Assembly: GCA_004294095.1 (NCBI GenBank)
Contig: RDZR01000050.1
Coordinates: 1 to 40,529, forward strand
DNA length: 40,529 nucleotides
Reading direction: 5' to 3'
From: Verrucomicrobiota bacterium
GTDB lineage: Bacteria; Verrucomicrobiota; Verrucomicrobiia; Verrucomicrobiales; Akkermansiaceae
The stretch's first letter is position 1. Each line of letters starts with the position of its first letter. Under the pieces are notes generated by a model, which made no database searches, was not told where the DNA came from, and was given only the letters and a program-made list of their open reading frames with translations. The translations under genes and the position numbers were made by a program. This document shows positions 21,721-34,095 of this stretch, piece after piece.

Positions 21721-22668
21721 ATGAAAATTAAGAACTACACTCAATTTCTTTGGCAACAGCTCGGCTTGCTCGCGCTCACCGCAGGAGTTGCCACCGCTGG
21801 TGCTGAAACGACTACGACGATGTCAACGACATCTGCTCCGATCAGCGCACCCTCCGACGATGTCGTCTCCGGCATGTTGAAATTAGATTTCAATACGCAC
21901 TTCATTTCCTACGGTGCCGATGTTTGGGGCGATGGCAGCAGCATGAGTGACCCCGGATTCAACCCAAACTTGGAGTTGTATTTCGCACTTCCTGGTGATT
22001 TGACTCTGACTCTTGGCACATGGTGGGATGTGAACTCGAAAGGAGATTCTCCAATCGGTGGACGGCTGCAGGAAGTCGATGTGTATGCAGGACTATCCTA
22101 CTCTATCGATAAGTTAACGATCGGGCTTACCTATCAAGCATGGATGTATGCTAATGCTGAAGGTAGTAATACTGAAGACATTCTTGATTTGAAATTCTCA
22201 TACGACACATTTTTGTCTCCCTCCTTGACCATTCACCAACGTCTCGATCAAGGTGCAGCAAATGGTGATGAGGGAACAGTCATTGTTCTAGGCCTCAGCC
22301 ACAGTATCGAAGCCGGTCCTGCAACGATTTCATTTCCTCTGAATATTGCATACTTCCCTACGGGCGGTTTCCACCAAAACTTTGTGGCTGCAGACCCAGG
22401 AAAGCCAGCTATCCCAGCTAGTTTTGGAGTGGCTGCGGAAGACGCTGTTGATCCTACACCTCAAATCGATGAAGCGGACACCGGATTTGGCTACGCCTCT
22501 CTGGGCGTAGCAGCCTCTCTTCCTCTATCACCCTTGATTGGGGACTCGTTTGGGGACTGGAGCTTGAATGCTGGCCTCACCTATTTCGTTACCAATAGTG
22601 ATATCATCCCAAATAACCCGTCCGACAGCTTCCTCACAGCAAGCCTCGGTGTTGCTTTGAGCTTCTAA
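21721..22668 (+). CDS. Outer-membrane porin-like beta-barrel protein
   Basis: 315 residues with a signal peptide (hydrophobic LGLLALTAGVATAGA; cleavage likely after AGA) and then a Thr/Ser-rich linker. The body has alternating beta-strand patterns ending in aromatic residues (LTLTLGTWWDV, LTIGLTYQAWMY, WSLNAGLTYFV), and the protein ends in Phe (LGVALSF), the usual mark of an outer-membrane barrel. I do not recognise a named family. Position next to amide genes and a sigma-54 promoter suggest a role in amide uptake, comparable in role to FmdC, the amide-induced porin of Methylophilus; homology to FmdC is not claimed. A strong terminator follows. Confidence 0.78.
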   Translation: MKIKNYTQFLWQQLGLLALTAGVATAGAETTTTMSTTSAPISAPSDDVVSGMLKLDFNTHFISYGADVWGDGSSMSDPGFNPNLELYFALPGDLTLTLGTWWDVNSKGDSPIGGRLQEVDVYAGLSYSIDKLTIGLTYQAWMYANAEGSNTEDILDLKFSYDTFLSPSLTIHQRLDQGAANGDEGTVIVLGLSHSIEAGPATISFPLNIAYFPTGGFHQNFVAADPGKPAIPASFGVAAEDAVDPTPQIDEADTGFGYASLGVAASLPLSPLIGDSFGDWSLNAGLTYFVTNSDIIPNNPSDSFLTASLGVALSF

Positions 22669-22913: not shown

Positions 22914-23834
22914 TTACTCACCACACAACCAGCCAGCTGTGACCTCATTGGCTTTGAGCGATCGAGGCAGGGAACGCACCTTTTCTAACTCAAGCAGCGC
23001 TTCGACCAGCAGCGATCGATTTGCCACAGTATCACATGCCGCCGCACCTTGAGAATGAATAACTTGGCATTTGAGATACTCTGCGCTTCTAAGATTCGGC
23101 TTGCCCAATGAGTTCATGGTCTCAACTGCGAGCTTCAATTGATCTTCTTCCTCTAACAGCATGCGTGCGAACTTCAAATGCATCGGCACTTTTTCGATGT
23201 TTGGAAAACTATTCTCCGCACCGCGCCTTCTGACCATGATCAACTTCTGCGGATATGGCTCGGAGTTGAAATCTTCATCAACATGGGCAATTCCCAAAAA
23301 ACTTGCATGCGCTGCCCAAGGGGTAGGGGCAATAAAAGCATCAATCTTCCCAGCCTTGGCACCATGCAACATCAAATCCATCGGCAACATTGAGAACTGA
23401 ACAGCGATGTTTTGAGGATCGGGGGCATTCCGGTGCAGCCATGCAAAAAACTGATGCCGAGTGAGCGACTTTTGGCTCTCAATCCCGATATTCAGCTTAG
23501 TCGGCCATCGTGGGGATGTGTGACGACGCGCTGCAGGCTGAATGACTTTCCACAGTGCGTCAGTCACCCCCATTTCCATCGCACCCGGGTGGATGAAAAG
23601 TTCAATCTGCCAATTCTGCCTCTCCCCGGGAAGCGCAAAAATTTCTGCGATAAAAATCTCCATCGGCACCAAGCCAGCAGTTAGATTCCCCTTTAATAAA
23701 TCTCTGACAATTCTGCCACAACTTAAAAATGGAACCATTTTCCCACGCCGCTCAGTCAACATCGGCTCTGCAAAAAATGGCAACGCTTCAAACGATGGCA
23801 CGAATCCAAATGTTGGAGAAGATTGATTCAGCAT
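22914..23834 (-). CDS. NasS/NrtA/CmpA-like substrate-binding protein without signal peptide
   Basis: 306 residues resembling the nitrate/bicarbonate ABC-transporter binding-protein superfamily: FGFVPSFEALPFFAEPML at the start, LLKGNLTAGLVPMEIFIAEIFALPG, and a later FFAWLHRNAPDP segment with DAFIAPTPWAAHASFLG. It has no signal peptide or lipobox, so it should be cytoplasmic. This matches NasS-type sensors, which bind a nitrogen compound and control an ANTAR antiterminator (NasT). No ANTAR partner or nitrate genes lie in the window. The ATG at 23834 is chosen because it directly precedes the conserved region. It has its own perfect sigma-54 promoter match and is divergent from amiE. A role as an amide or nitrogen sensor is inferred. 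Confidence 0.72.
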   Translation of the reverse strand: MLNQSSPTFGFVPSFEALPFFAEPMLTERRGKMVPFLSCGRIVRDLLKGNLTAGLVPMEIFIAEIFALPGERQNWQIELFIHPGAMEMGVTDALWKVIQPAARRHTSPRWPTKLNIGIESQKSLTRHQFFAWLHRNAPDPQNIAVQFSMLPMDLMLHGAKAGKIDAFIAPTPWAAHASFLGIAHVDEDFNSEPYPQKLIMVRRRGAENSFPNIEKVPMHLKFARMLLEEEDQLKLAVETMNSLGKPNLRSAEYLKCQVIHSQGAAACDTVANRSLLVEALLELEKVRSLPRSLKANEVTAGWLCGE

Positions 23835-23890: not shown

Positions 23891-23906
23891 AGCAAACGAC
23901 ATGCCA
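23891..23906 (-). promoter_or_regulatory. Sigma-54 (-24/-12) promoter match before the NasS-like gene
   Basis: On the minus strand TGGCAT GTCGT TTGCT matches the consensus TGGCAYRNNNNTTGCW at every defined position. Predicted start near 23880, about 46 bases before the ATG at 23834. Confidence 0.7.
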
Positions 23907-24039: not shown

Positions 24040-24096
24040 GCAGGCCAGTTAGCTAGAAAATAAGACTATTTTGAGATCTCTTGGCATGTGGCCTGC
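24040..24096. repeat. Inverted repeat upstream of amiE
   Basis: GCAGGCCA (24040-24047) and TGGCCTGC (24089-24096) are perfect 8-base inverted arms 41 bases apart. The right arm overlaps the sigma-54 site, so a protein bound to both arms could affect promoter use. It could equally be chance. Confidence 0.3.
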
Positions 24097-24097
24097 T
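24082..24097 (+). promoter_or_regulatory. Sigma-54 (-24/-12) promoter match before amiE
   Basis: TGGCAT GTGGC CTGCT matches TGGCAYRNNNNTTGCW with one mismatch (C for T) and exact GG-to-GC spacing. Predicted start near 24108, leaving a leader of only about 14 bases that contains AAAGGG before the ATG. Confidence 0.6.
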
Positions 24098-24121: not shown

Positions 24122-25162
24122 ATGAGACACGGCGATATTTCAAGCAGTAAGGACACCGTTGGAGTGGCAGTGGTTAATTACAAGATGCCGCGTCTTCACA
24201 CCCGAGATGATGTTCTCGAAAATGCGAAGAAGATCGCAGACATGATCAAGGGCATGAAAATCGGGCTACCTGGGATGGATCTCGTCATTTTTCCCGAATA
24301 CAGCACGATGGGAATCATGTATGACCGGGATGAAATGATGGCGACTGCTGCGACGATTCCCGGCGATGAAACACGAATTTTCAGCGAAGCCTGCAAAGCG
24401 GCAAATACGTGGGGAGTTTTCTCGCTCACTGGTGAGCGCCACGAGGACCATCCGAATAAAGCTCCTTACAACACCTTGGTGCTTATCAATCACCTTGGTG
24501 AAATAGTCCAGAAATACCGCAAATGTATCCCTTGGTGCCCAATCGAAGGATGGTATCCCGGAGACCGAACTTATGTCTCAGAAGGACCGAAGGGGCTAAA
24601 AATCAGCCTGATCATTTGTGATGATGGAAACTATCCGGAAATTTGGCGTGACTGCGCGATGAAAGGTGCCGAGCTGATCGTCCGCTGCCAAGGCTACATG
24701 TATCCCGCGAAGGACCAGCAAGTGATGATGGCCAAGAGCATGGCATGGGCAAATAATTGTTATGTCGCTGTAGCCAACGCCTCCGGCTTCGACGGAGTTT
24801 ACTCGTATTTCGGCCATTCCGCGATCATCGGCTTCGACGGACGGACATTGGGAGAATGTGGCGAGGAGGACATGGGTATTCAGTATGCGCAGCTTTCCGT
24901 GAGCCAGATCCGCGATGCGCGGGCGAACGACCAATCCCAGAACCATCTCTTCAAACTCCTTCACCGAGGTTACACTGGAGTCCACAATTCCGGCGATGGC
25001 GATAAGGGCGTGGCGACTTGCCCATTTGATTTCTATCGCAGCTGGGTCCTTGATGCTGAGAAGACCCAAGCGGATGTGGAGGCGTTCACTCGCAGCACCA
25101 TCGGAGTGGCAGATTGCCCAGTAGGAACGCTGCCCTTCGAAGGCAAGGAAACCACCGCCTGA
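24122..25162 (+). CDS. amiE: Aliphatic amidase (acylamide amidohydrolase)
   Basis: 346 residues, the same length as Pseudomonas aeruginosa AmiE and, from memory, aligned with it without gaps over most of its length ([20 protein letters not shown] and onward). It is a nitrilase-superfamily amidase hydrolysing short aliphatic amides such as acetamide to ammonia and the acid. The active site is intact: Glu59 in FPEYS, Lys134 in KYRK, Glu142 in PIEGW and Cys166 in IICDDG. Cytoplasmic; no signal. The very high similarity to a proteobacterial enzyme in a verrucomicrobial context suggests horizontal transfer. It is followed 21 bases later by amiB. Formamidase AmiF is the closest alternative, but the N-terminus matches AmiE. 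Confidence 0.97.
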
Positions 25163-25183: not shown

Positions 25184-26227
25184 GTGCCATTCATCAACGA
25201 CGTCATCGAGGATAACAAAAAGCTCAATGACGAATCGAAATCAATGCTCGACGGCTCACGAGCCACGCGCTTTCGCTTCGATCCGGATCAAGCCATCGCA
25301 TTGCTGAAGACTCGAATTATCGGGCAAGCGGACATGCACGATTCCATCGCGGACATGCTCCACGTGGTCAAGGCGGACTTCGGATCAGGTGAGCGTCCGC
25401 TCGCAGTTTTTTTGTTTGTGGGGTCCACCGGCGTGGGAAAAACAGAAACGGTGAAAGTTCTAACAGAAGCCATTCTCGGCAGTGCAAGCCAGATGTGCCG
25501 CATCGATATGAACACACTCGCGCAGGAGCATTACACTGCTGCACTCACCGGTGCACCGCCAGGCTATGTGGGCAGCAAGGAAAATCACACGCTCTTCGAC
25601 TTCGAAAAAATAGAGGGGACCTATAGCAAACCGGGCATTGTGCTTTTCGACGAAATCGAAAAATCCAGCAAGGAGGTTGCCCGAGCACTGCTGAATGTGT
25701 TAGATTCTGGGAGACTCGAGCTTTCCGCTGGGACCAAGCGGCTGAACTTCAACAACTGCCTCATTTTCATGACCAGCAATGAAGGCGCAAGAGAGCTCGA
25801 CGGCTACCGCCGGAAGTTCGAAAGCGGGTGGAGAAAGTATTTGGGCCACAGACCGTGCAGGACAAAGGAACAAGAAATTTTGAATCATGCCTTGCAAAAA
25901 AAATTCGATCTAGAGTTCATTAACCGCATTGATCGAATCGTATTTTTCGAGGAACTAGGTCACCATTTTCTCGATGATATTCTCTCTGTGGAATTAGTGA
26001 TGCTAAATAAGCGGCTCGCGCGGCATCAGGTTTCAATCAAGTTAGACGACACTGCTCGGCAATACTTGGTAGGAAGGCATGACCCGCGCTTTGGAGCGCG
26101 ACATTTACGGCGCAGAATCCGCGCCCATCTGGAGCCGGAGCTGGCGCGCGCGCTTAACGCTGACCCTGGCTGTAGTTCCTTCCTCGCAACTTGCCATTCA
26201 GAAAAACTCATTGTTTGCCCAGATTGA
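25184..26227 (+). CDS. amiB: AmiB-type AAA+ ATPase (Clp-like)
   Basis: 347 residues from a GTG at 25184. One Clp-type AAA+ module: Walker A GSTGVGKT (residues 80-87), Walker B VLFDEIE (about 153-159), sensor 1 Asn in FMTSNEG (about 199) and a C-terminal sensor-2 segment PRFGARHLRRRI, as in the second domain of ClpB. The N-domain and first AAA+ domain of ClpB are missing. In P. aeruginosa the gene after amiE is amiB, a ClpB-like ATPase of unclear duty, and this gene holds the same position. It may help fold or assemble the amidase hexamer; that is inference. P. aeruginosa continues with amiC, amiR and amiS, none of which follows here. Confidence 0.85.
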   Translation: MPFINDVIEDNKKLNDESKSMLDGSRATRFRFDPDQAIALLKTRIIGQADMHDSIADMLHVVKADFGSGERPLAVFLFVGSTGVGKTETVKVLTEAILGSASQMCRIDMNTLAQEHYTAALTGAPPGYVGSKENHTLFDFEKIEGTYSKPGIVLFDEIEKSSKEVARALLNVLDSGRLELSAGTKRLNFNNCLIFMTSNEGARELDGYRRKFESGWRKYLGHRPCRTKEQEILNHALQKKFDLEFINRIDRIVFFEELGHHFLDDILSVELVMLNKRLARHQVSIKLDDTARQYLVGRHDPRFGARHLRRRIRAHLEPELARALNADPGCSSFLATCHSEKLIVCPD

Positions 26228-26286: not shown

Positions 26287-27222
26287 TTACCTAAACTTTT
26301 CAAGATCTCCATCTAACAGACTCAAGAACACCTCGGCAATCCAACTTAACGGGCGTTCTGCTGGCCACCACGCCGAGATCGTCCTCGTAGGGGCTTCTAA
26401 AAACGGATTGAGACGGATGAGTGCTGGTTCCACGGGATGAACTGATGTGCACCAATCAGGCAGGCAGAGCACACCTTGGCCTTCTGTTGCAAGATCGATT
26501 GCACCACGAACATCGGGTAAATTCCAAACCCTCTGCTCAATGTGAATTCCTTTTAAAAATGTGCTCTTTAGCGTTTCGAGGATCCCTTTCTCTGGCAAAA
26601 TCCACCATAAATCCGAGAAGTCTTCAACTTTGAGGCGTCCGTGTTGTCCTAGTGGATGAAAGGGAGCAACATATAGATGCAGTGTTTCCTTGATTAAATC
26701 ACGACGCACGACTCCAGCAGGCACTTCAGCTTCATACTGAATGGTGAAATCAACCAGATGCTCCTTCTGCTCGCAGCTAACAGGCACTCCCATTTCTAAC
26801 AACGCCGCTGGAAAACACTCGCGAAAAGAACCTAACATGCTTGAGCCCATCAATGACTGAAGCACTTGCGGAAGTGCAATTCTCAACTGATCGCTGCGAG
26901 AATCGAGCAATGCCATTTCCTGACGGATCTTTTTCATGCATTGCATCAGCTCCTCAATAATCGGCAAAAGACGCAATCCAGCACCTGTGAGAGTGACATG
27001 TGGCCCATTTCTCCGAAACAACGCCAATCCTAACTCTTCCTCCAAACTTCGCATGGAATGACTTACAGCTGAGGGACTTAACCCTAGCTGAGCGGCCGTC
27101 ATTGCAAAGCTGCCATCTCGCGCAGCCAAATAAAACATCAGTAGCCGCTTCGAATCAAACACTTCAGGGGGGCATAAAGCTGTCACATTTTCTATATCGT
27201 GAATAGAATTCAACTTAGGCAT
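26287..27222 (-). CDS. LysR-family transcriptional regulator
   Basis: About 311 residues. The winged helix-turn-helix is LLMFYLAARDGSFAMTAAQLGLSPSAVSHSMRSLEEELGLALFRR, followed by an effector-binding domain of periplasmic-protein type. It is divergent from the importer genes and probably regulates them or amiE-amiB in response to an amide or nitrogen signal. The start is uncertain: the frame is open to 27306, the ATG at 27222 is the default, and an in-frame GTG at 27186 is still ahead of the helix-turn-helix. The last choice fits the predicted sigma-54 start near 27227 better, because the ATG at 27222 would have only a five-base leader. Confidence 0.88.
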   Translation of the reverse strand: MPKLNSIHDIENVTALCPPEVFDSKRLLMFYLAARDGSFAMTAAQLGLSPSAVSHSMRSLEEELGLALFRRNGPHVTLTGAGLRLLPIIEELMQCMKKIRQEMALLDSRSDQLRIALPQVLQSLMGSSMLGSFRECFPAALLEMGVPVSCEQKEHLVDFTIQYEAEVPAGVVRRDLIKETLHLYVAPFHPLGQHGRLKVEDFSDLWWILPEKGILETLKSTFLKGIHIEQRVWNLPDVRGAIDLATEGQGVLCLPDWCTSVHPVEPALIRLNPFLEAPTRTISAWWPAERPLSWIAEVFLSLLDGDLEKFR

Positions 27223-27237
27223 GAGTTTGAGACCAAT

Positions 27238-27253
27238 AGCAATGTATGTGCCA
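27238..27253 (-). promoter_or_regulatory. Sigma-54 (-24/-12) promoter match before the LysR gene
   Basis: On the minus strand TGGCAC ATACA TTGCT matches TGGCACRNNNNTTGCW at every defined position. Predicted start near 27227. A regulator gene of LysR type with a perfect -24/-12 element is unusual. Confidence 0.65.
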
Positions 27254-27386
27254 AGCCGTGCAGGAATCAAATTGAGAGAACGCAAACCGCTCGCGAGCCT
27301 TAGCACTGCGCTTTTATCGCCCTCTTAACCTAACAATTCCTAGAAATGGCGATATTGAATGAATTTCAACTACTAGAAAGAAGCAT

Positions 27387-27402
27387 TGGCACATCGGGTG
27401 CT
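27387..27402 (+). promoter_or_regulatory. Sigma-54 (-24/-12) promoter match before the ABC importer genes
   Basis: TGGCAC ATCGG GTGCT: one mismatch (G for T) to TGGCACRNNNNTTGCW and exact spacing. Predicted start near 27414. The roughly 59-base leader contains a short hairpin (AGTGCG 27413-27418 with CGCACT 27436-27441). Confidence 0.65.
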
Positions 27403-27471: not shown

Positions 27472-28692
27472 ATGAAAGTATCATCCCGATTCCTTCACTT
27501 TGCGGCGGCTGTTAGCCTTGCGTTGGCCTTTAATACGGCCCATGCAAAACCGCCCACCGCTGAAGTTAATACCACTGGTCTCGCCGTCACTGACGACACT
27601 GTCACCGTCGGCCAGCTCCATTCCGCCACTGGCACGATGGCCATCAGTGAGACTGGCTCCATCCAAGCTGAGCAACTTGCAATCGATCAAATCAATGCTG
27701 CGGGCGGAGTGCTCGGGCGACAGATTAAGGTCATCCAAGAAGACGGCGCAAGCGATTGGCCAACTTTTGCGGAAAAAGCCAAAAAACTATTAGTGAGCGA
27801 CAAGGTCGGCACGGTTTTTGGATGCTGGACATCAGCCTCGCGCAAAGCAGTTCTGCCAGTGTTTGAAAAAGAAAATGGAATGCTTTATTACCCGACTTTC
27901 TATGAAGGTCTTGAGCAGTCACCAAATGTCATTTACACCGGCCAAGAAGCAACTCAGCAAATCATTGCTGGCTTGGACTGGATCGCCAAAGAGAAAAAGG
28001 CAAAAACTTTTTATCTGATTGGTTCAGACTACATTTGGCCGCGGACCTCGAACAAAATTGCTCGTAAGCACATCGAGAATGTGCTCAAGGGCAAAGTGGT
28101 AGGCGAGGAATATTACGCTCTTGGCCATACTCAGTTCGGTTCGCTGATCAATAAAATCAAACTCAAAAAACCGGATGTGATCTACGCAGCTGTGGTCGGT
28201 GGATCGAATGTTTCTTTCTATAAGCAGCTTAAAGCGGCCGGTATCACGAGCGAAAAACAAACTTTGCTCACCATTTCGGTTACCGAGGACGAAGTGCTCG
28301 GCATTGGCGGGGAAAACTTGGTTGGATTTTACTCATCCATGAAGTATTTCCAAAGCTTGGACAACCCTGCGAACAAAGCTTTCGTAGCTGCCTTCAAAGA
28401 AAAGTATGGCGCGGACTCTGTCATCGGTGACGTGACTCAAGCGGCCTACCTAGGCCCATGGTTGTGGAAAAAAGCTGTCGAAAAAGCAAATAGCTTTGAC
28501 ATCGATAAAATAAGAGCCGCTTCCCCAGGCATCGAAATGGACAATGCACCAGAAGGGTATGTTAAAGTGCACGAAAATCATCACCTCTGGAGCAAGTTAC
28601 GGATTGGCCAATGGCAAACTGACGGCCAAGCAAAGGTGCTTTATGAGTCAGAACTCATCGAACCAGATCCATTCCCAGAAGGTTACCAATAA
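27472..28692 (+). CDS. urtA: Urea/short-chain amide ABC transporter substrate-binding protein (UrtA/FmdD family)
   Basis: 406 residues with a Sec signal peptide (MKVSSRFLHFAAAVSLALAF, cleavage near AHA). The mature protein is a type I periplasmic binding protein: VTVGQLHSATGTMAISE, INAAGGVLGRQIKVI and FGCWTSASRKAVLPVFE are characteristic of the UrtA/FmdD group, which binds urea and short amides; the cytoplasmic amide sensor AmiC is a relative. Its context with amiE and fmdA favours amides, or both amides and urea. It is the first gene of the importer, 141 bases before the first permease; a large hairpin in that gap probably sets higher expression of this gene than of the rest. Confidence 0.92.
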   Translation: MKVSSRFLHFAAAVSLALAFNTAHAKPPTAEVNTTGLAVTDDTVTVGQLHSATGTMAISETGSIQAEQLAIDQINAAGGVLGRQIKVIQEDGASDWPTFAEKAKKLLVSDKVGTVFGCWTSASRKAVLPVFEKENGMLYYPTFYEGLEQSPNVIYTGQEATQQIIAGLDWIAKEKKAKTFYLIGSDYIWPRTSNKIARKHIENVLKGKVVGEEYYALGHTQFGSLINKIKLKKPDVIYAAVVGGSNVSFYKQLKAAGITSEKQTLLTISVTEDEVLGIGGENLVGFYSSMKYFQSLDNPANKAFVAAFKEKYGADSVIGDVTQAAYLGPWLWKKAVEKANSFDIDKIRAASPGIEMDNAPEGYVKVHENHHLWSKLRIGQWQTDGQAKVLYESELIEPDPFPEGYQ

Positions 28693-28833: not shown

Positions 28834-29763
28834 ATGTTTGAAGGATATACCGCAGAAGAACTTCAGAGCATCTTTATCATGCAGGGCTTCTCTGGCCTCA
28901 GTTTGTTTAGTGTGCTACTACTCATGGGACTGGGCTTAGCCTTAATTTTTGGACAAATGGGTGTCATCAATATGGCCCACGGTGAGTTCATGGCACTGGG
29001 TGCCTACACCGTTTTCCTTTGTTCCAACCTTACTCATAAATACGCGCCTGCCTTTGGCCCGTATTATTTCATTTGCGCCATCATATTTGCATTCTTTATA
29101 TGCGCGCTCGTCGGCGCTTTAGTAGAGTGGTTAATGATTAGGCATTTGTATCACAGGCCACTGGACACCTTACTTGCTACATGGGGCTTAAGTTTGATTT
29201 TACAACAAGGGTATCGTTCGATCTTCGGTGCACGTGAAGTGACGCCGACCCTCCCTGACTGGCTCATGGGATCCTACACTTTAAAAGAAGGGTTAGACAT
29301 CCCAATCAACGGGGTTTTTGTTCTAGGATTATCAATCATCGTCACTGCTGCGCTGATGCTCTTTATGTATCGCTCAAAGTTTGGTTTACGCTTAAGAGCG
29401 ACCGTCCAAAACCGTAAAATGAGTGGCGCAGTGGGAATTCATACCCAACAAGTCGATCGTTTGGCCTTTGCCATCGGTTGTGGCATCGCAGGCATTGCAG
29501 GTGCTGCTTTTACCACGATTGGTTCCACTGGACCGGATAGTGGCAGCCGTTACATTGTCGATGCTTTCTTGGTTGTCGTAGGTGGGGGAACCGCGAGTTT
29601 GCTAGGATGCATTGCATCCGCCTTCGGTATCGCTCAAGCGCAGTCGGTTTTGGAATTTTTCTTAGACGGCACCAAAGGCAAAGTGGCGACGCTCCTCGTG
29701 ATTGTCATCGCGTTGATGATTCGCCCGCAGGGACTCTTCCCGAGCAAAGTCCGTGGCAACTGA
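28834..29763 (+). CDS. urtB: ABC transporter permease, UrtB/LivH type
   Basis: 309 residues, very hydrophobic, with about eight membrane segments. It belongs to the branched-chain amino acid/urea permease family; GLGLALIFGQMGVINMAHGEFMALGAY is typical of UrtB and FmdE, as are LRATVQNRKMSGAVGI and the C-terminal VIALMIRPQGLFP. It forms half of the inner-membrane channel with the next gene. It is 39 bases ahead of that gene on the same strand. UrtB proteins sometimes have a long periplasmic N-terminal domain; this one lacks it, as FmdE does. Confidence 0.92.
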   Translation: MFEGYTAEELQSIFIMQGFSGLSLFSVLLLMGLGLALIFGQMGVINMAHGEFMALGAYTVFLCSNLTHKYAPAFGPYYFICAIIFAFFICALVGALVEWLMIRHLYHRPLDTLLATWGLSLILQQGYRSIFGAREVTPTLPDWLMGSYTLKEGLDIPINGVFVLGLSIIVTAALMLFMYRSKFGLRLRATVQNRKMSGAVGIHTQQVDRLAFAIGCGIAGIAGAAFTTIGSTGPDSGSRYIVDAFLVVVGGGTASLLGCIASAFGIAQAQSVLEFFLDGTKGKVATLLVIVIALMIRPQGLFPSKVRGN

Positions 29764-29802: not shown

Positions 29803-30963
29803 ATGCAAACTTTGTTCCGCTCACTTTTCAAATCAAGAGCAGAGGCAATCGCCTTCGGGATTTTCATCCTCTTCATATTCGTCATTTTCCCTCTCACCAT
29901 GCCGATCTTCCGGCTGAATTTGGTAGGGAAATACCTCACTTACGGCTTTGTTGGCGTTGGCTTGGTGCTACTCTGGGGGCGCTGCGGCGTGCTCAGCTTG
30001 GGTCAAGGCGTCTTCTTTGGACTAGGCGGCTACTGCATGGCAATGTTTCTTAAATTAGAAGCATCCGATCCTGTAACCACCGCAATTCAGTCCACGCCCG
30101 GTATTCCTGACTTTATGGACTGGAATCAGCTCACCGAGCTGCCTTGGTTCTGGGAACCATTCAAGAGCTTACCTTTCACCATTTTTGCGATCTTTATAGT
30201 GCCAGGGATCATTGCTTTTTTCATTGGCTGGGCGCTTTTCCGCAGACGAGTAGGAGGGGTTTATTTCTCGATCATCACTCAAGCGATCGCGCTTATTTTC
30301 TCACTCGGCATCGATGGCAACCAAGGCTACACCGGCGGACGAAATGGCATCACGGACTTGCGCACTCTGCTCGGCTGGGACATCCGCTCTGATAATGCCC
30401 AATTTATCCTTTATTTCGTAAGTGCAACACTGCTTGTTCTAGTCGCTTTTTCTGCGAAATACATCATCAACACTCGTCTAGGTCGCGTGCTGGTTGCCAT
30501 ACGAGATCGCGAAGATCGAGTCCGATTTTCCGGATACGATGTGGCCATGGTGCGTTCATTCATTTTCGCCTTTGCGGCGATGGTCAGCGGTCTGGGAGGC
30601 GCAATGTTCGTGCTGCAGGTCGGCTTCATGTCACCTTCCATCGTCGGCATCGTTCCTTCGATTGAGATGGTCATCTTCACGGCAGTGGGGGGGCGCCTCT
30701 CAGTGCTCGGGGCCATTGTTGGATGCTTACTGGTCAATTATGGAAAAACGACATTCTCGGAAGATTTTCCAAATCTCTGGCTGTATCTGATGGGCGGCAC
30801 CTTCATCGCCGTCGTCATGTTCTTCCCAAATGGCCTTGCGGGCCTCGCTGACAAAATTCCGATGCTTAAGCCCTATGCCTCAAAATGGCTCAATCGCAAC
30901 AAGCAAGAACCCGCAAAAGCACCAAATACTCCTAGCTCCAACCCCGTTTCTGATGAGCCATAA
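29803..30963 (+). CDS. urtC: ABC transporter permease, UrtC/LivM type
   Basis: 386 residues with about nine to ten membrane segments. Family features: GVGLVLLWGRCGVLSLGQGVFFGLGGY, VYFSIITQAIAL, TGGRNGITDL, LVAIRDREDRVRFSGYDV and the GGRLSVLGAIVGCLLVN segment. It pairs with the preceding permease. The C-terminus is a Lys/Pro-rich cytoplasmic tail, and its final codons overlap the start of the ATPase gene by 11 bases, indicating coupled translation. Confidence 0.93.
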   Translation: MQTLFRSLFKSRAEAIAFGIFILFIFVIFPLTMPIFRLNLVGKYLTYGFVGVGLVLLWGRCGVLSLGQGVFFGLGGYCMAMFLKLEASDPVTTAIQSTPGIPDFMDWNQLTELPWFWEPFKSLPFTIFAIFIVPGIIAFFIGWALFRRRVGGVYFSIITQAIALIFSLGIDGNQGYTGGRNGITDLRTLLGWDIRSDNAQFILYFVSATLLVLVAFSAKYIINTRLGRVLVAIRDREDRVRFSGYDVAMVRSFIFAFAAMVSGLGGAMFVLQVGFMSPSIVGIVPSIEMVIFTAVGGRLSVLGAIVGCLLVNYGKTTFSEDFPNLWLYLMGGTFIAVVMFFPNGLAGLADKIPMLKPYASKWLNRNKQEPAKAPNTPSSNPVSDEP

Positions 30964-31699
30964 TAACGAAAATATTCTCGAAATCGAAGACCTCGGCGTG
31001 TCTTTCGATGGATTTAAAGCTGTCGATGGCTTCAATTTCTATCTCGCTCGCAATCACATTCATGTGATCATCGGGCCCAATGGCGCCGGAAAAACCACGG
31101 TGCTGGATCTAATTTGTGGCAAAACCAACGCCACTTCTGGCTCCATCAAATTCCATGGCAAAGAAATGCGTGGCAAACGTGAATATCGAATTGTTCGTGC
31201 CGGCATCGGGCGCAAATTCCAGAATCCATCGATTTACGAAAATCTAACTGTTTTCGAAAATCTTGAATTATCCCACCCGACAGGACGCGGCGTGCTGGGC
31301 TGCTTGTTGTTCCGCCGCACCGCAGAGATCCTCAATCAATGCAACTCGGTAGCTGAGCAAATTGGCCTTTCCGATCGGCTCGATACCGAGGCCGGCATTC
31401 TGAGCCACGGCCAAAAACAGTGGCTCGAAATTGGCATGCTGCTCATGCAAAACCCAGAGGTCATCATGCTTGATGAGCCCGTGGCCGGCATGAGTGTGCG
31501 CGAGCGAACTGCCACAGCCGAACTCATCCGCCGCATCGCTAAAAATCGCTCCGTGATCGTCATCGAGCACGATATGGAATTCGTCCGAGAAATTGCCGAC
31601 CGCGTGACGGTGATGCATCTTGGGAAAATTCTATCAGAAGGATCGATGGATAAAGTCAGCCAAGATCCCAAAGTCATCGATGTTTACATCGGCCATTAA
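30953..31699 (+). CDS. urtD: ABC transporter ATP-binding protein, UrtD/LivG type
   Basis: 248 residues. Walker A GPNGAGKTT, a Q-loop in GRKFQNPSIYENLTV, an ABC signature LSHGQKQWLEIGMLL (typical UrtD wording), Walker B VIMLDEPVAGMS and the switch His in VIVIEHDMEFV. It powers import with the next gene product. The open frame extends back to 30830, but the ATG at 30953 (MSHNNENILEIEDL) fits the family and overlaps the upstream permease by 11 bases. Confidence 0.94.
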   Translation: MSHNNENILEIEDLGVSFDGFKAVDGFNFYLARNHIHVIIGPNGAGKTTVLDLICGKTNATSGSIKFHGKEMRGKREYRIVRAGIGRKFQNPSIYENLTVFENLELSHPTGRGVLGCLLFRRTAEILNQCNSVAEQIGLSDRLDTEAGILSHGQKQWLEIGMLLMQNPEVIMLDEPVAGMSVRERTATAELIRRIAKNRSVIVIEHDMEFVREIADRVTVMHLGKILSEGSMDKVSQDPKVIDVYIGH

Positions 31700-31717: not shown

Positions 31718-32407
31718 ATGATTTCAGTAAATAATCTTCAAGTCGCCTACGGCCAAAGCGTCGTTATTCCAGATATCACTTTCGAGACACCCAAAGCAGA
31801 AATTCTAGGCATTGTTGGCCGCAATGGCATGGGAAAGACGACCCTTTTTCGCGCGCTCATTGGCATGTTGCCCAGCAAATCTGGCACCATCACCGTGGAT
31901 GGCAAAGACATCACCACGATGCCATCTTATCGCAGAGTTGCCAATGGAGTGGCTTATGTTCCCCAGGGGCGCATGATTTTTCCTTACCTGACGGTCTATG
32001 AAAACTTGATTTCTGGAGTCAAAGGCAAAGTGAGTCCAGATGCCGTTTCTGAAATCTATTCGCTTTTCCCAGTGCTCCAGGAAATGCGCAAACGCCGCGG
32101 TGGCAATCTCTCGGGTGGCCAACAACAACAGCTCGCGATTGGCCGCGCCTTGATGACGAATCCATCCGTTCTCTTGTTAGATGAACCCACTGAAGGCATC
32201 CAACCTTCGATCATCAAAGACATCTCACGTAGCCTGCGGGAAATTCGCGACATGCGAAAACTCACCATCATCGTCAGCGAACAGCTGCTGAGTTTTGTGC
32301 TTGATACCTGCGATGCGCTCGCAGTCATCGATAAAGGCCACCTTATCCGCAGAGCACGGCGCGAAGATGTCGATGCTGAGGAAATCAAAACCATGCTTTC
32401 AGTCTAA
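31718..32407 (+). CDS. urtE: ABC transporter ATP-binding protein, UrtE/LivF type
   Basis: 229 residues. Walker A GRNGMGKTT, Q-loop in VPQGRMIFPYLTV, signature LSGGQQQQLAIGRAL, Walker B VLLLDEPTEGIQPSII and switch region TIIVSEQLL, where Gln replaces the usual His (EQ for EH), as is common in LivF/UrtE. It completes the five-gene importer and is 18 bases behind urtD. Confidence 0.94.
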   Translation: MISVNNLQVAYGQSVVIPDITFETPKAEILGIVGRNGMGKTTLFRALIGMLPSKSGTITVDGKDITTMPSYRRVANGVAYVPQGRMIFPYLTVYENLISGVKGKVSPDAVSEIYSLFPVLQEMRKRRGGNLSGGQQQQLAIGRALMTNPSVLLLDEPTEGIQPSIIKDISRSLREIRDMRKLTIIVSEQLLSFVLDTCDALAVIDKGHLIRRARREDVDAEEIKTMLSV

Positions 32408-32439: not shown

Positions 32440-33666
32440 ATGCCTATGAATACCCTGATCAAAGTTGATTTATCAGCAACCCCAGAGTCACAAGACTGCC
32501 TTCACAACCGCTGGCATCCCGATATCCCAATGGTCGCCATGGTGAAACCTGGCGACGAATTCCGCGTCGAGTGCATCGATTGGACCGGCGGCCAAATCAA
32601 AAATGATGACAACGCGATGGACATTCACGTGGTTGATTTATCCAAAGTGCACTACCTCAGCGGCCCGATCGGCGTCGAGGGCGCTGAACCTGGCGACCTG
32701 CTCGTGGTGGACATCTTAGACGTCGGCGTGCTTGATGAATACCAATGGGGTTTCACCGGATTGTTTGCAAAAACCAACGGCGGCGGCTTCTTGACCGATC
32801 ATTACCCAGATGCGCGCAAAGCATGCTGGGACTTTCACGGCATCTATGCCTCATCACGTCACATCCCGAATTGTGAATTTGCCGGCATCATGCACCCGGG
32901 ATTGATCGGCTGCTTGCCTTCGCGCGAGCTTCTCGATACTTGGAATACCCGCGAAAAAGAGCTTTTCGACACCGATCCTGATCGCGTGCCACCGCTATGC
33001 GCCCTTCCATACGCAGACACCGCACACATGGGGCGCTTATCAGGTGCAGCCCGCGATGCCGCTGCCGCCGAGGGTGCGCGCACCGTTCCACCGCGTGAGC
33101 ACGGAGGAAACTGCGATATTAAAAACTTAACGCGTGGCTCGAAAGTTTATTTCCCCGTTTATGTCAAAGGCGGAGGACTTTCGATGGGTGATATCCACTT
33201 CAGCCAAGGCGATGGTGAAATCACCTTCTGCGGCGCGATTGAAATGGCTGGATACCTTGATCTCCGCGTGGGACTGATCAAAGGTGGAATGGAAAAATAC
33301 GCCATCCGCAACCCGCTATTTTTACCAAGCCCTCTCACACCGGAATACAAGCGCCACATCATTTTCGAAGGCATTTCCGTCGATGAATCAGGTAAGCAAC
33401 ATTACCTCGATCCATTCGTCTCCTACAAAATGGCCTGCTTGAATGCCATCGAGTATATGAAAAAATTTGGCTACACCGGTGAGCAAGCATATGCGATTCT
33501 TGGCACCGCGCCTGTTGAAGGACACATCAGCGGCATCGTTGATATTCCGAACGCCTGCGCCACTCTTTGGTTGCCTACCGAAATCTTTGACTTCGATATC
33601 ATGCCAAATGCTCACGGCCCAACTGCAAGCGTTACGCCTGGCAAAGACCTAGCGACTGCATTCTGA
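32440..33666 (+). CDS. fmdA: Formamidase (acetamidase/formamidase family)
   Basis: 408 residues of the FmdA_AmdA family, unrelated to AmiE; it hydrolyses formamide and other short amides to ammonia and the acid. Conserved text: LHNRWHPDIPMVAMVKPGDEF, LSGPIGVEGAEPGDLLVVDI, GGFLTDHYPDA, FAGIMHPGLIGCLPSRELL, PPREHGGNCDIKNL, GGGLSMGDIHFSQGDGE and ACNAIEYM-like text near the end. The family is close in wording to FmdA of Methylophilus methylotrophus. It begins 32 bases after urtE, so it probably shares the importer transcript. The ATG at 32440 or one six bases later may be the start. The presence of two unrelated amidases in one island is notable. Confidence 0.95.
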   Translation: MPMNTLIKVDLSATPESQDCLHNRWHPDIPMVAMVKPGDEFRVECIDWTGGQIKNDDNAMDIHVVDLSKVHYLSGPIGVEGAEPGDLLVVDILDVGVLDEYQWGFTGLFAKTNGGGFLTDHYPDARKACWDFHGIYASSRHIPNCEFAGIMHPGLIGCLPSRELLDTWNTREKELFDTDPDRVPPLCALPYADTAHMGRLSGAARDAAAAEGARTVPPREHGGNCDIKNLTRGSKVYFPVYVKGGGLSMGDIHFSQGDGEITFCGAIEMAGYLDLRVGLIKGGMEKYAIRNPLFLPSPLTPEYKRHIIFEGISVDESGKQHYLDPFVSYKMACLNAIEYMKKFGYTGEQAYAILGTAPVEGHISGIVDIPNACATLWLPTEIFDFDIMPNAHGPTASVTPGKDLATAF

Positions 33667-33753: not shown

Positions 33754-34095
33754 ATGCCTCTTTACAATTTTCACTGCAATGACTGTGGCGAATTTTACCT
33801 CTTCCGCAGCATTGATACCCGCAATGATCCTGCGGTTTGTCCTGAATGCTCGGCTGATGCCAGCCGCCTCATCTTAGCCCCTAATCTCTCCATCATGAGT
33901 CCATCGGTGCGCCGCGCCCATAGCGTGAACGAGCGCAGCCGCCACGAGCCGAAAATCAGTGGCACTCACACGTGCAGCAGCAGTTGCGGTTGTGGAACGG
34001 GAAAAAAAGTGAAACCCACCCTCACCCGTGAAACCAAACTTGGCAAACTCAATGCCTCACGCGCCACTTCTCGGCCATGGATGTTAGGCCACTAA
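33754..34095 (+). CDS. fmdB: FmdB-type zinc-ribbon protein
   Basis: 113 residues. The N-terminal zinc ribbon is MPLYNFHCNDCGEF followed by CPECSADASRLI (two CxxC pairs), the FmdB family signature. The C-terminal half holds a second cysteine cluster (CSSSCGCG) and a basic tail. In Methylophilus, FmdB is a putative regulator next to formamidase; the gene order fmdA-fmdB is kept here. It lies beyond the fmdA terminator, so its expression may be lower. Function of the family is not firmly known. Many genomes have similar proteins away from amidases, so the functional link rests on position. Confidence 0.9.
   Translation: MPLYNFHCNDCGEFYLFRSIDTRNDPAVCPECSADASRLILAPNLSIMSPSVRRAHSVNERSRHEPKISGTHTCSSSCGCGTGKKVKPTLTRETKLGKLNASRATSRPWMLGH

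Follow-up and report, generated by a model that had tools for sequence, protein, structure and literature searches.

A cytosolic NrtA-fold protein as the putative sensor partner of a LysR-type regulator at a urea/amide locus of Verrucomicrobiales

The product of the open reading frame at positions 22914-23834 (here called the binder), within a 40,529-nt stretch of Verrucomicrobiales DNA (the window, from genome G000), seems somewhat likely to be a stand-alone cytosolic sensor of the NrtA fold that forms a two-protein regulator with a nearby LysR protein of an amide/urea regulon. The evidence comes from the fold of the binder, the recurrence of a related LysR gene at its homologous loci, and sigma-54-type promoter sites and a TGAA-N5-TTCA dyad shared by these loci; from this evidence we infer that the two proteins make contact, and likewise the ligand and the direction of control. 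A broader and more tentative proposal is that the cytosolic NrtA-fold proteins of Verrucomicrobiales are dedicated LysR sensor subunits, which would make them the third case, after NasS-NasT and the NrtC/CmpC domain, of this fold serving as a sensor in the cytosol. Such sensors would fall into a nitrate branch, made up of a NasS-like protein and its LysR, and an amide/urea branch, made up of the binder and its LysR, both with sigma-54-like promoters and a shared TGAA-N5-TTCA operator. Features of the window are collected in Table 1.

Table 1. Predicted genes and sites around the binder (window coordinates)
Feature	Position	Strand	Remarks
Binder, cytosolic NrtA-fold (NMT1_2) protein	22914..23834	(-)	ATG start, 306 aa
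Perfect -24/-12 (sigma-54-type) site before binder, TGGCATGTCGTTTGCT	23891..23906	(-)	no mismatch
-24/-12-like site before amiE	24082..24097	(+)	1 mismatch
amiE, aliphatic amidase	24122..25162	(+)	NF009802, 709 bits, cut-off 427
ClpB-D2-like AAA ATPase adjoining amiE	25184..26227	(+)	profile match
LysR-family regulator, proposed partner	26287..27222	(-)	start moved from 27306 to 27222 by homology
Dyad TGAA-N5-TTCA near lysR start	27200..27212		codons 4-8
-24/-12-like site before lysR	27238..27253	(-)	1 mismatch
Dyad TGAA-N5-TTCA, LysR-box-like	27356..27368		18 bp ahead of urtA -24 element
-24/-12-like site before urtA	27387..27402	(+)	2 mismatches
urtA	27472..28692	(+)	TIGR03407, 533 bits, cut-off 493
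urtB	28834..29763	(+)	profile match
urtC	29803..30963	(+)	profile match
urtD	30830..31699	(+)	longest ORF
urtE	31718..32407	(+)	profile match
fmdA, formamidase	32440..33666	(+)	NF045496, 764 bits, cut-off 500
FmdB-type zinc-ribbon protein	33754..34095	(+)	profile match

The binder and its fold

The binder matches the Pfam family NMT1_2 with 32.4 bits (cut-off 24.7), and this is the sole Pfam match in all seven aligned members of its family at E<=0.001; no NCBIfam model comes close to its cut-off. The structure predicted by AlphaFold (mean pLDDT 87.7, with values from 49.9 to 87.7 among five models) superimposes on NrtA (PDB 2g29) with Z 21.2 over 288 residues at an rmsd of 4.0. Pfam and fold together place the binder in the NMT1_2/NrtA-type superfamily, as the initial annotation had it. 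The structural comparison also gave CmpA (Z 20.3-20.4), a Staphylococcus binding protein (22.3), SsuA (20.5), TauA (19.9) and the cytosolic regulatory domain of NrtC/CmpC (19.3-20.6). Most of the top matches are tied, and since SsuA and TauA tie with the NrtA group, NrtA cannot be told apart by its fold alone. By sequence, the NrtC/CmpC regulatory domains are the first PDB matches, at weak E values of 0.012 and 0.0011, and a profile of the binder matches the NasS-like proteins of related genomes over 284 columns (E 6.7e-8).

No signal peptide was seen by eye at the seven aligned starts, which lie about 9 residues ahead of a conserved G(F/I)(V/L)PS motif; the start codons in this alignment were picked by hand. 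Longer in-frame starts are present in three of the homologues (L022, L023 and L024), and in the window a longer TTG start (23885) would fall ahead of the transcription start predicted from the -12 element. The cytosolic, NasS/NrtA-like character first proposed for the binder is thus upheld by the lack of a visible signal peptide, the NasS-like profile match and the fold.

The residues that coordinate nitrate in NrtA, which we take to be W102, Q155, G240 and K269, were mapped onto the binder through alignments, the W and Q positions being uncertain by 1-3 residues. At the mapped positions the binder has no W and no Q, the glycine ahead of E-P-W is an invariant proline (P170) in the binder family, and the lysine is kept in the window's binder but varies among K, R, Q and E in the family. 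Because these residues are not conserved as a set, nitrate is an unlikely ligand; the neighbouring genes suggest a cue from the amide/urea pathway instead.

The urea/amide locus and its homologues

The setting in nitrogen and amide metabolism that had been suggested for the binder is borne out by its surroundings. The binder gene is indeed divergent from amiE, which is followed by an ATPase that we presume from its position to be AmiB-like. This ATPase consists of the ClpB-D2 part of the AAA family only, and on a Halomonas plasmid a 56% identical protein is encoded next to fmdA. The lysR gene, separated from the binder gene by 2.4 kb that hold amiE and the ATPase gene, encodes both domains expected of a LysR-type regulator (HTH_1, 4.9e-16; LysR_substrate, 4.3e-18). 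The next-best models for the Urt proteins are LivG, LivF, LivH and LivM, which makes Urt an importer of the branched-chain-amino-acid type; the true start of urtD is probably later than that of the longest ORF, since its profile match begins at residue 49. On the far side of the binder (21721-22668) lies a gene for an outer-membrane porin-like protein. A 39% identical protein precedes urtA in G038 (L089 7576-8523), so the one in the window may be a urea/amide porin.

The reported absence of a nitrate transporter holds for the window and fails for the genome, where contig C34 carries an nrtA-like gene (best PDB match NrtA, 1.8e-77) followed by a transport permease gene. ANTAR genes, reported as absent from the window, gave zero matches in the whole genome too. 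Among 58 relatives three had matches at E<=0.001, one of them over the cut-off, so the search can detect such proteins; none of 14 control genomes matched, and the sensitivity of the search was not established.

Homologues of the binder, about 29-37% identical, occur in eight Verrucomicrobiales genomes including its own, two of which (BvORR034, a cultured environmental strain of Verrucomicrobium sp. that has both binder and LysR, and BvORR106) are near-copies of each other. A LysR gene related to that of the window is found at seven of the eight loci, two of the seven copies being partial (G020 and G010), and the eighth locus (L025) stops at a contig end. Binder and lysR are convergent and adjacent at five of the seven (L015, L016, L017, L018 and L024); at L023 they flank urt-fmdA. 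The description of the binder as an orphan with a partner elsewhere is therefore not sustained: a LysR gene is present at every locus whose contig reaches far enough. Complete urtABCDE-fmdA operons are present at five binder loci (the window, L015, L017, L023/L093 and L024). In G010 urtA to urtD lie on a separate short contig (L019), in the L025 genome only the urtA promoter sequence was seen, and on the short contig of G020 urt-fmdA was not seen. The binder gene lies inside the urt operon at none of the loci. Outside the window, the stretches fetched for the loci yielded no amiE.

Two of these loci have peculiarities of their own. The G010 binder gene is split over two frames (L005/L018 707-1740), whether in reality or through a sequencing error. 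In the genome of L023, urease genes directly follow lysR behind a perfect -24/-12 site (L093 9798-15030); ureA, ureB, ureC and ureG score above their cut-offs and ureE below its own, and ureF and ureD were named by position and eye only.

Among 59 genomes (the window's own and 58 relatives), the binder was found in five at E<=1e-20. The LysR was found at E<=1e-30 in four of these five, the G020 copy being cut by a contig end, versus none of the other 54. Weak binder matches (E above 1e-7) went uncounted; they come from the NasS-like loci of G032, G058 and G021 and from G010, whose split gene gives such a match in its second half. A UrtA with 89-100% identity occurs in the same four genomes that have both binder and LysR and nowhere else among the 59, other UrtA proteins at E<=1e-80 being 44-48% identical. 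Between loci, the binder is 29-37% and the LysR 36-49% identical, so that the two have diverged to a similar extent, versus 73-92% for UrtA-E and FmdA. In a LysR tree that left out four duplicate rows and the L016 and L018 fragments, the five binder-linked rows long enough form one clade (98/93). Two alphaproteobacterial LysR rows join this group (95/91); one of these has no binding-protein gene within 5 kb, and the record of the other is unannotated. The binder was found in 2 of 384 genomes sampled from the class (E<=1e-20) and in 2 of 387 from the phylum (E<=1e-10), both samples yielding the same two genomes; distant relatives may be missed in these samples because scoring covered just the top 5-6 preliminary candidates of each genome. 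A scan of contigs gave no match with a single-protein query and six loci with an alignment query, and there was no match on plasmids.

Sigma-54-type sites, the TGAA-N5-TTCA dyad and a NasS-like parallel

The perfect -24/-12 match first reported before the binder was found again, and only about 0.07 such matches are expected by chance per window. With one mismatch allowed, the window holds four sites versus 1.77 expected, and 13 shuffles reach four, so that the sites of the window alone are weak evidence. Their conservation in relatives is the stronger evidence. In a scan that allowed up to 2 mismatches and kept GG and GC, -24/-12-like sites lie before the binder at seven of eight loci (no more than 90 bp away in five, 138 and 201 bp away in the other two), the exception being L017. 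They also precede lysR at six of six loci, at a distance of 15-19 bp from the start in four of them and of 36-40 bp in the others, and urtA at six of six; such sites occur at a background rate of about 0.018 per 150 bp, a figure that includes the true ones. These sites are presumably used by sigma-54. RpoN domains were not found in the window's own genome, a 97%-complete draft of 113 contigs, nor in G005 and G020. An assembly gap is the likely reason in the own genome, since 56 of 58 relatives have RpoN.

The TGAA-N5-TTCA dyad precedes urtA at six of six loci, with 17-18 bp between it and the -24 element at four of them and 28 bp, about one helical turn more, at the other two. LysR boxes have the T-N11-A form with dyad symmetry, and the dyad may be bound by the LysR of these loci. 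It is also present at the lysR start in the binder-linked group, perfect at three of six loci, with one mismatch at two and absent at one. Here it could reflect conservation of the protein, since it reads as the motif LNxIHD in the window, L015 and L023. A role at the DNA level is favoured because the dyads at NasS-linked lysR genes (see below) begin 9-16 bp ahead of the start (one at 49), these starts being taken from alignments and a few not being start codons. Searches that tolerated one mismatch did not find the dyad ahead of amiE, nor ahead of the binder in the window and six further loci, so that the binder gene itself is not tied to it.

A search of the own genome for the dyad followed by GGCAC gave three matches (control, one), and the dyad with GGCAY and the -12 GC gave two (control, none). 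These two are urtA and a second formamidase gene, at 4623-5909 of L067 (G000 contig C55), which was not an input to the pattern and whose product belongs to the FmdA_AmdA (acetamidase/formamidase) family and is 54% identical to FmdA. Across 22 genomes, eight with the binder and 14 without, the latter pattern gave 28 matches in 17 genomes versus four in a backward control, and seven of the 28 are urtA promoters of binder genomes. Dyad and -24/-12 site also precede genes for an ammonium transporter (G038) and a PII protein (G058); another such pair lies ahead of rpoN in G032 (L091 4864-4970). The pattern is thus not confined to genomes with the binder-linked LysR, and since the G038 and G058 matches occur without that LysR group, a general nitrogen activator may bind the dyad.

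A parallel arrangement exists around NasS-like genes. With a NasS-like protein of G032 as the query, matches were obtained in 28 of 58 relatives and, through NrtA, in the own genome; 30 loci were fetched, of which 29 are NasS-like, the NrtA locus L122 being excluded. Six further NasS-like places and one fragment lie outside this count. A divergent LysR gene adjoins the NasS-like gene at 26 of the 29 loci (set L006, L007, L008, L094-L123); L101, L112 and L123 have no such neighbour. The same is true of L092, one of the places outside the count, where a second NasS-like gene is preceded by a dyad and a -24/-12 site and followed by a gene for an MFS transporter; L123, too, is a second copy. The NasS-LysR intergenic regions contain -24/-12-like sites in 25 of 26 cases, with up to 3 mismatches and thus looser than at binder loci. 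The dyad at the lysR start is perfect in 15 of 26 versus 1.2% of random 80-mers, and within one mismatch in 18 of 26 versus 4.4%, counts that are not independent because many of the loci are close relatives. The NasS-linked LysR clade is weak (69/50), and many of the outgroup branches are long. Descent of the binder and its LysR from a duplicated NasS-LysR pair was considered; the LysR tree neither shows the binder-linked and NasS-linked groups as sisters nor rejects a common clade of the two (p-AU 0.26).

The proposed regulator, its rivals and known systems

In the proposed mechanism, nitrogen limitation would switch on the binder, lysR, amiE and urtABCDE-fmdA through sigma-54 promoters. LysR would bind TGAA-N5-TTCA just upstream of the urtA promoter, and its binding to the dyad at its own start would make it autoregulated. 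The binder would sense a cytosolic cue from the amide/urea pathway and would set the activity of LysR through direct contact, in the way NasS acts on NasT. LysR proteins usually bind an effector of their own, which counts against such a pairing.

The dyad could instead be the site of an NtrC-like sigma-54 activator, with LysR and binder acting elsewhere or independently. Sigma-54 promoters need an activator of this kind, and the dyad with its -24/-12 site before the genes for the G038 ammonium transporter and the G058 PII protein, where the binder-linked LysR is missing, and before G032 rpoN speaks for it. However, lysR genes of two groups have the dyad close to their 5' ends, its symmetric T-N11-A form is that of a LysR box, and G038, G058 and G032 all carry NasS-linked LysR genes whose products might bind it, so that we regard this explanation as rather unlikely. 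Less probable still is a role of the binder as a separate regulatory subunit for an ABC transporter, shutting the Urt importer when product builds up and leaving transcription to LysR alone. The NrtC/CmpC domains, as its best PDB sequence matches with an agreeing fold, and the urt operons that are complete at five of eight loci and partial at a sixth are in keeping with such a role. Against it, Urt is not of the NrtBCD type, UrtD and UrtE are 76-87% identical between loci while the binder has diverged far more, and the binder gene adjoins lysR at five loci and keeps outside the urt operon at all of them.

Two further identities are very improbable. For a NasS proper with an ANTAR partner elsewhere, fold and cytosolic location would fit, but the genome has no ANTAR match, the NrtA set of nitrate residues is not conserved, and no Rfam family reaches its threshold in the window between 20000 and 34500; the ANTAR partner suggested at the outset is thus unlikely. 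The same fold superfamily also includes biosynthetic enzymes of the Thi5, MqnA/D and DszB kind, a grouping the initial annotation had kept in view. The binder model matches these less well (Thi5, Z 16.1; MqnD, 15.8; DszB, 13.1). Thi5/HMP synthase has a Cys-rich active-site motif, the seven-row alignment of the binder family has no invariant Cys, and no thiamine or menaquinone gene is among the identified neighbours, all of which disfavours an enzyme to a like degree.

In the known cases, NasS-like proteins serve as sensors of an antiterminator that binds RNA. Should the binder indeed be a sensor for LysR, the module would be coupled to transcription initiation rather than termination in bacteria where ANTAR partners are not found, and a LysR protein would respond to a signal relayed by another protein, not solely through its own ligand pocket. 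This would explain genes beside LysR genes that have the look of stray transporter binding proteins, and it outlines a compact urea/amide regulon with a predicted operator that is open to test.

A close known counterpart is NasS of the NasS-NasT system of Paracoccus denitrificans, described as a cytosolic NrtA-like protein without a signal peptide that acts in nitrogen assimilation (PMC3795266). The binder shares the cytosolic location, the NrtA likeness, the lack of a visible signal peptide and the nitrogen setting; it differs in its linked regulator, which is a LysR and not an ANTAR protein, in nitrate residues that are not conserved as a set, and in its linkage to urea and amide genes. The C-terminal domain of NrtC/CmpC (PDB 8wm7, 9uak) is likewise a cytosolic NrtA-like regulatory module and the best PDB sequence match, whereas the binder stands alone with no ATPase fusion and lies near a transporter of another class. 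Plasmid pBN4 has a substrate-binding-domain gene and a regulator gene beside amiE, urtABCDE and fmdA, an AmiC/AmiR-like pair. The pBN4 regulator is an ANTAR protein, whereas the window has an NMT1_2 protein and a LysR in that place. AmiC has a binding-protein fold different from the NrtA type, and the binder shows only NMT1_2 matches and an NrtA-type fold.

Among LysR proteins, AtzR, which regulates the use of cyanuric acid, is expressed from a sigma-54 promoter and autoregulated, as is proposed for the regulator of the window; we know of no dedicated NrtA-fold sensor for it. NtcB is a cyanobacterial LysR needed for nitrate/nitrite induction and so is likewise a regulator of nitrogen assimilation, but the part of its description consulted mentions no separate NrtA-fold sensor (PMC5424462). 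A pairing of NasS with LysR was not found in the portions of the literature searched, which included those of PMC3795266, PMC5424462, PMC9311074 and PMC12112638. In five proteobacterial plasmid records with fmdA, one of them without urt, the regulators vary. Three have a response-regulator gene together with an ATP-binding or second regulator gene at urtA, probably kinase pairs, and one of these three also has an ANTAR/binding-protein pair beside amiE. One urt-fmdA plasmid has a LysR that is only 21-25% identical to the binder-linked group. Since the urt-fmdA operons of plasmids adjoin other regulators and those described here a NasS-fold/LysR pair, the regulatory slot beside these operons seems to be exchangeable.
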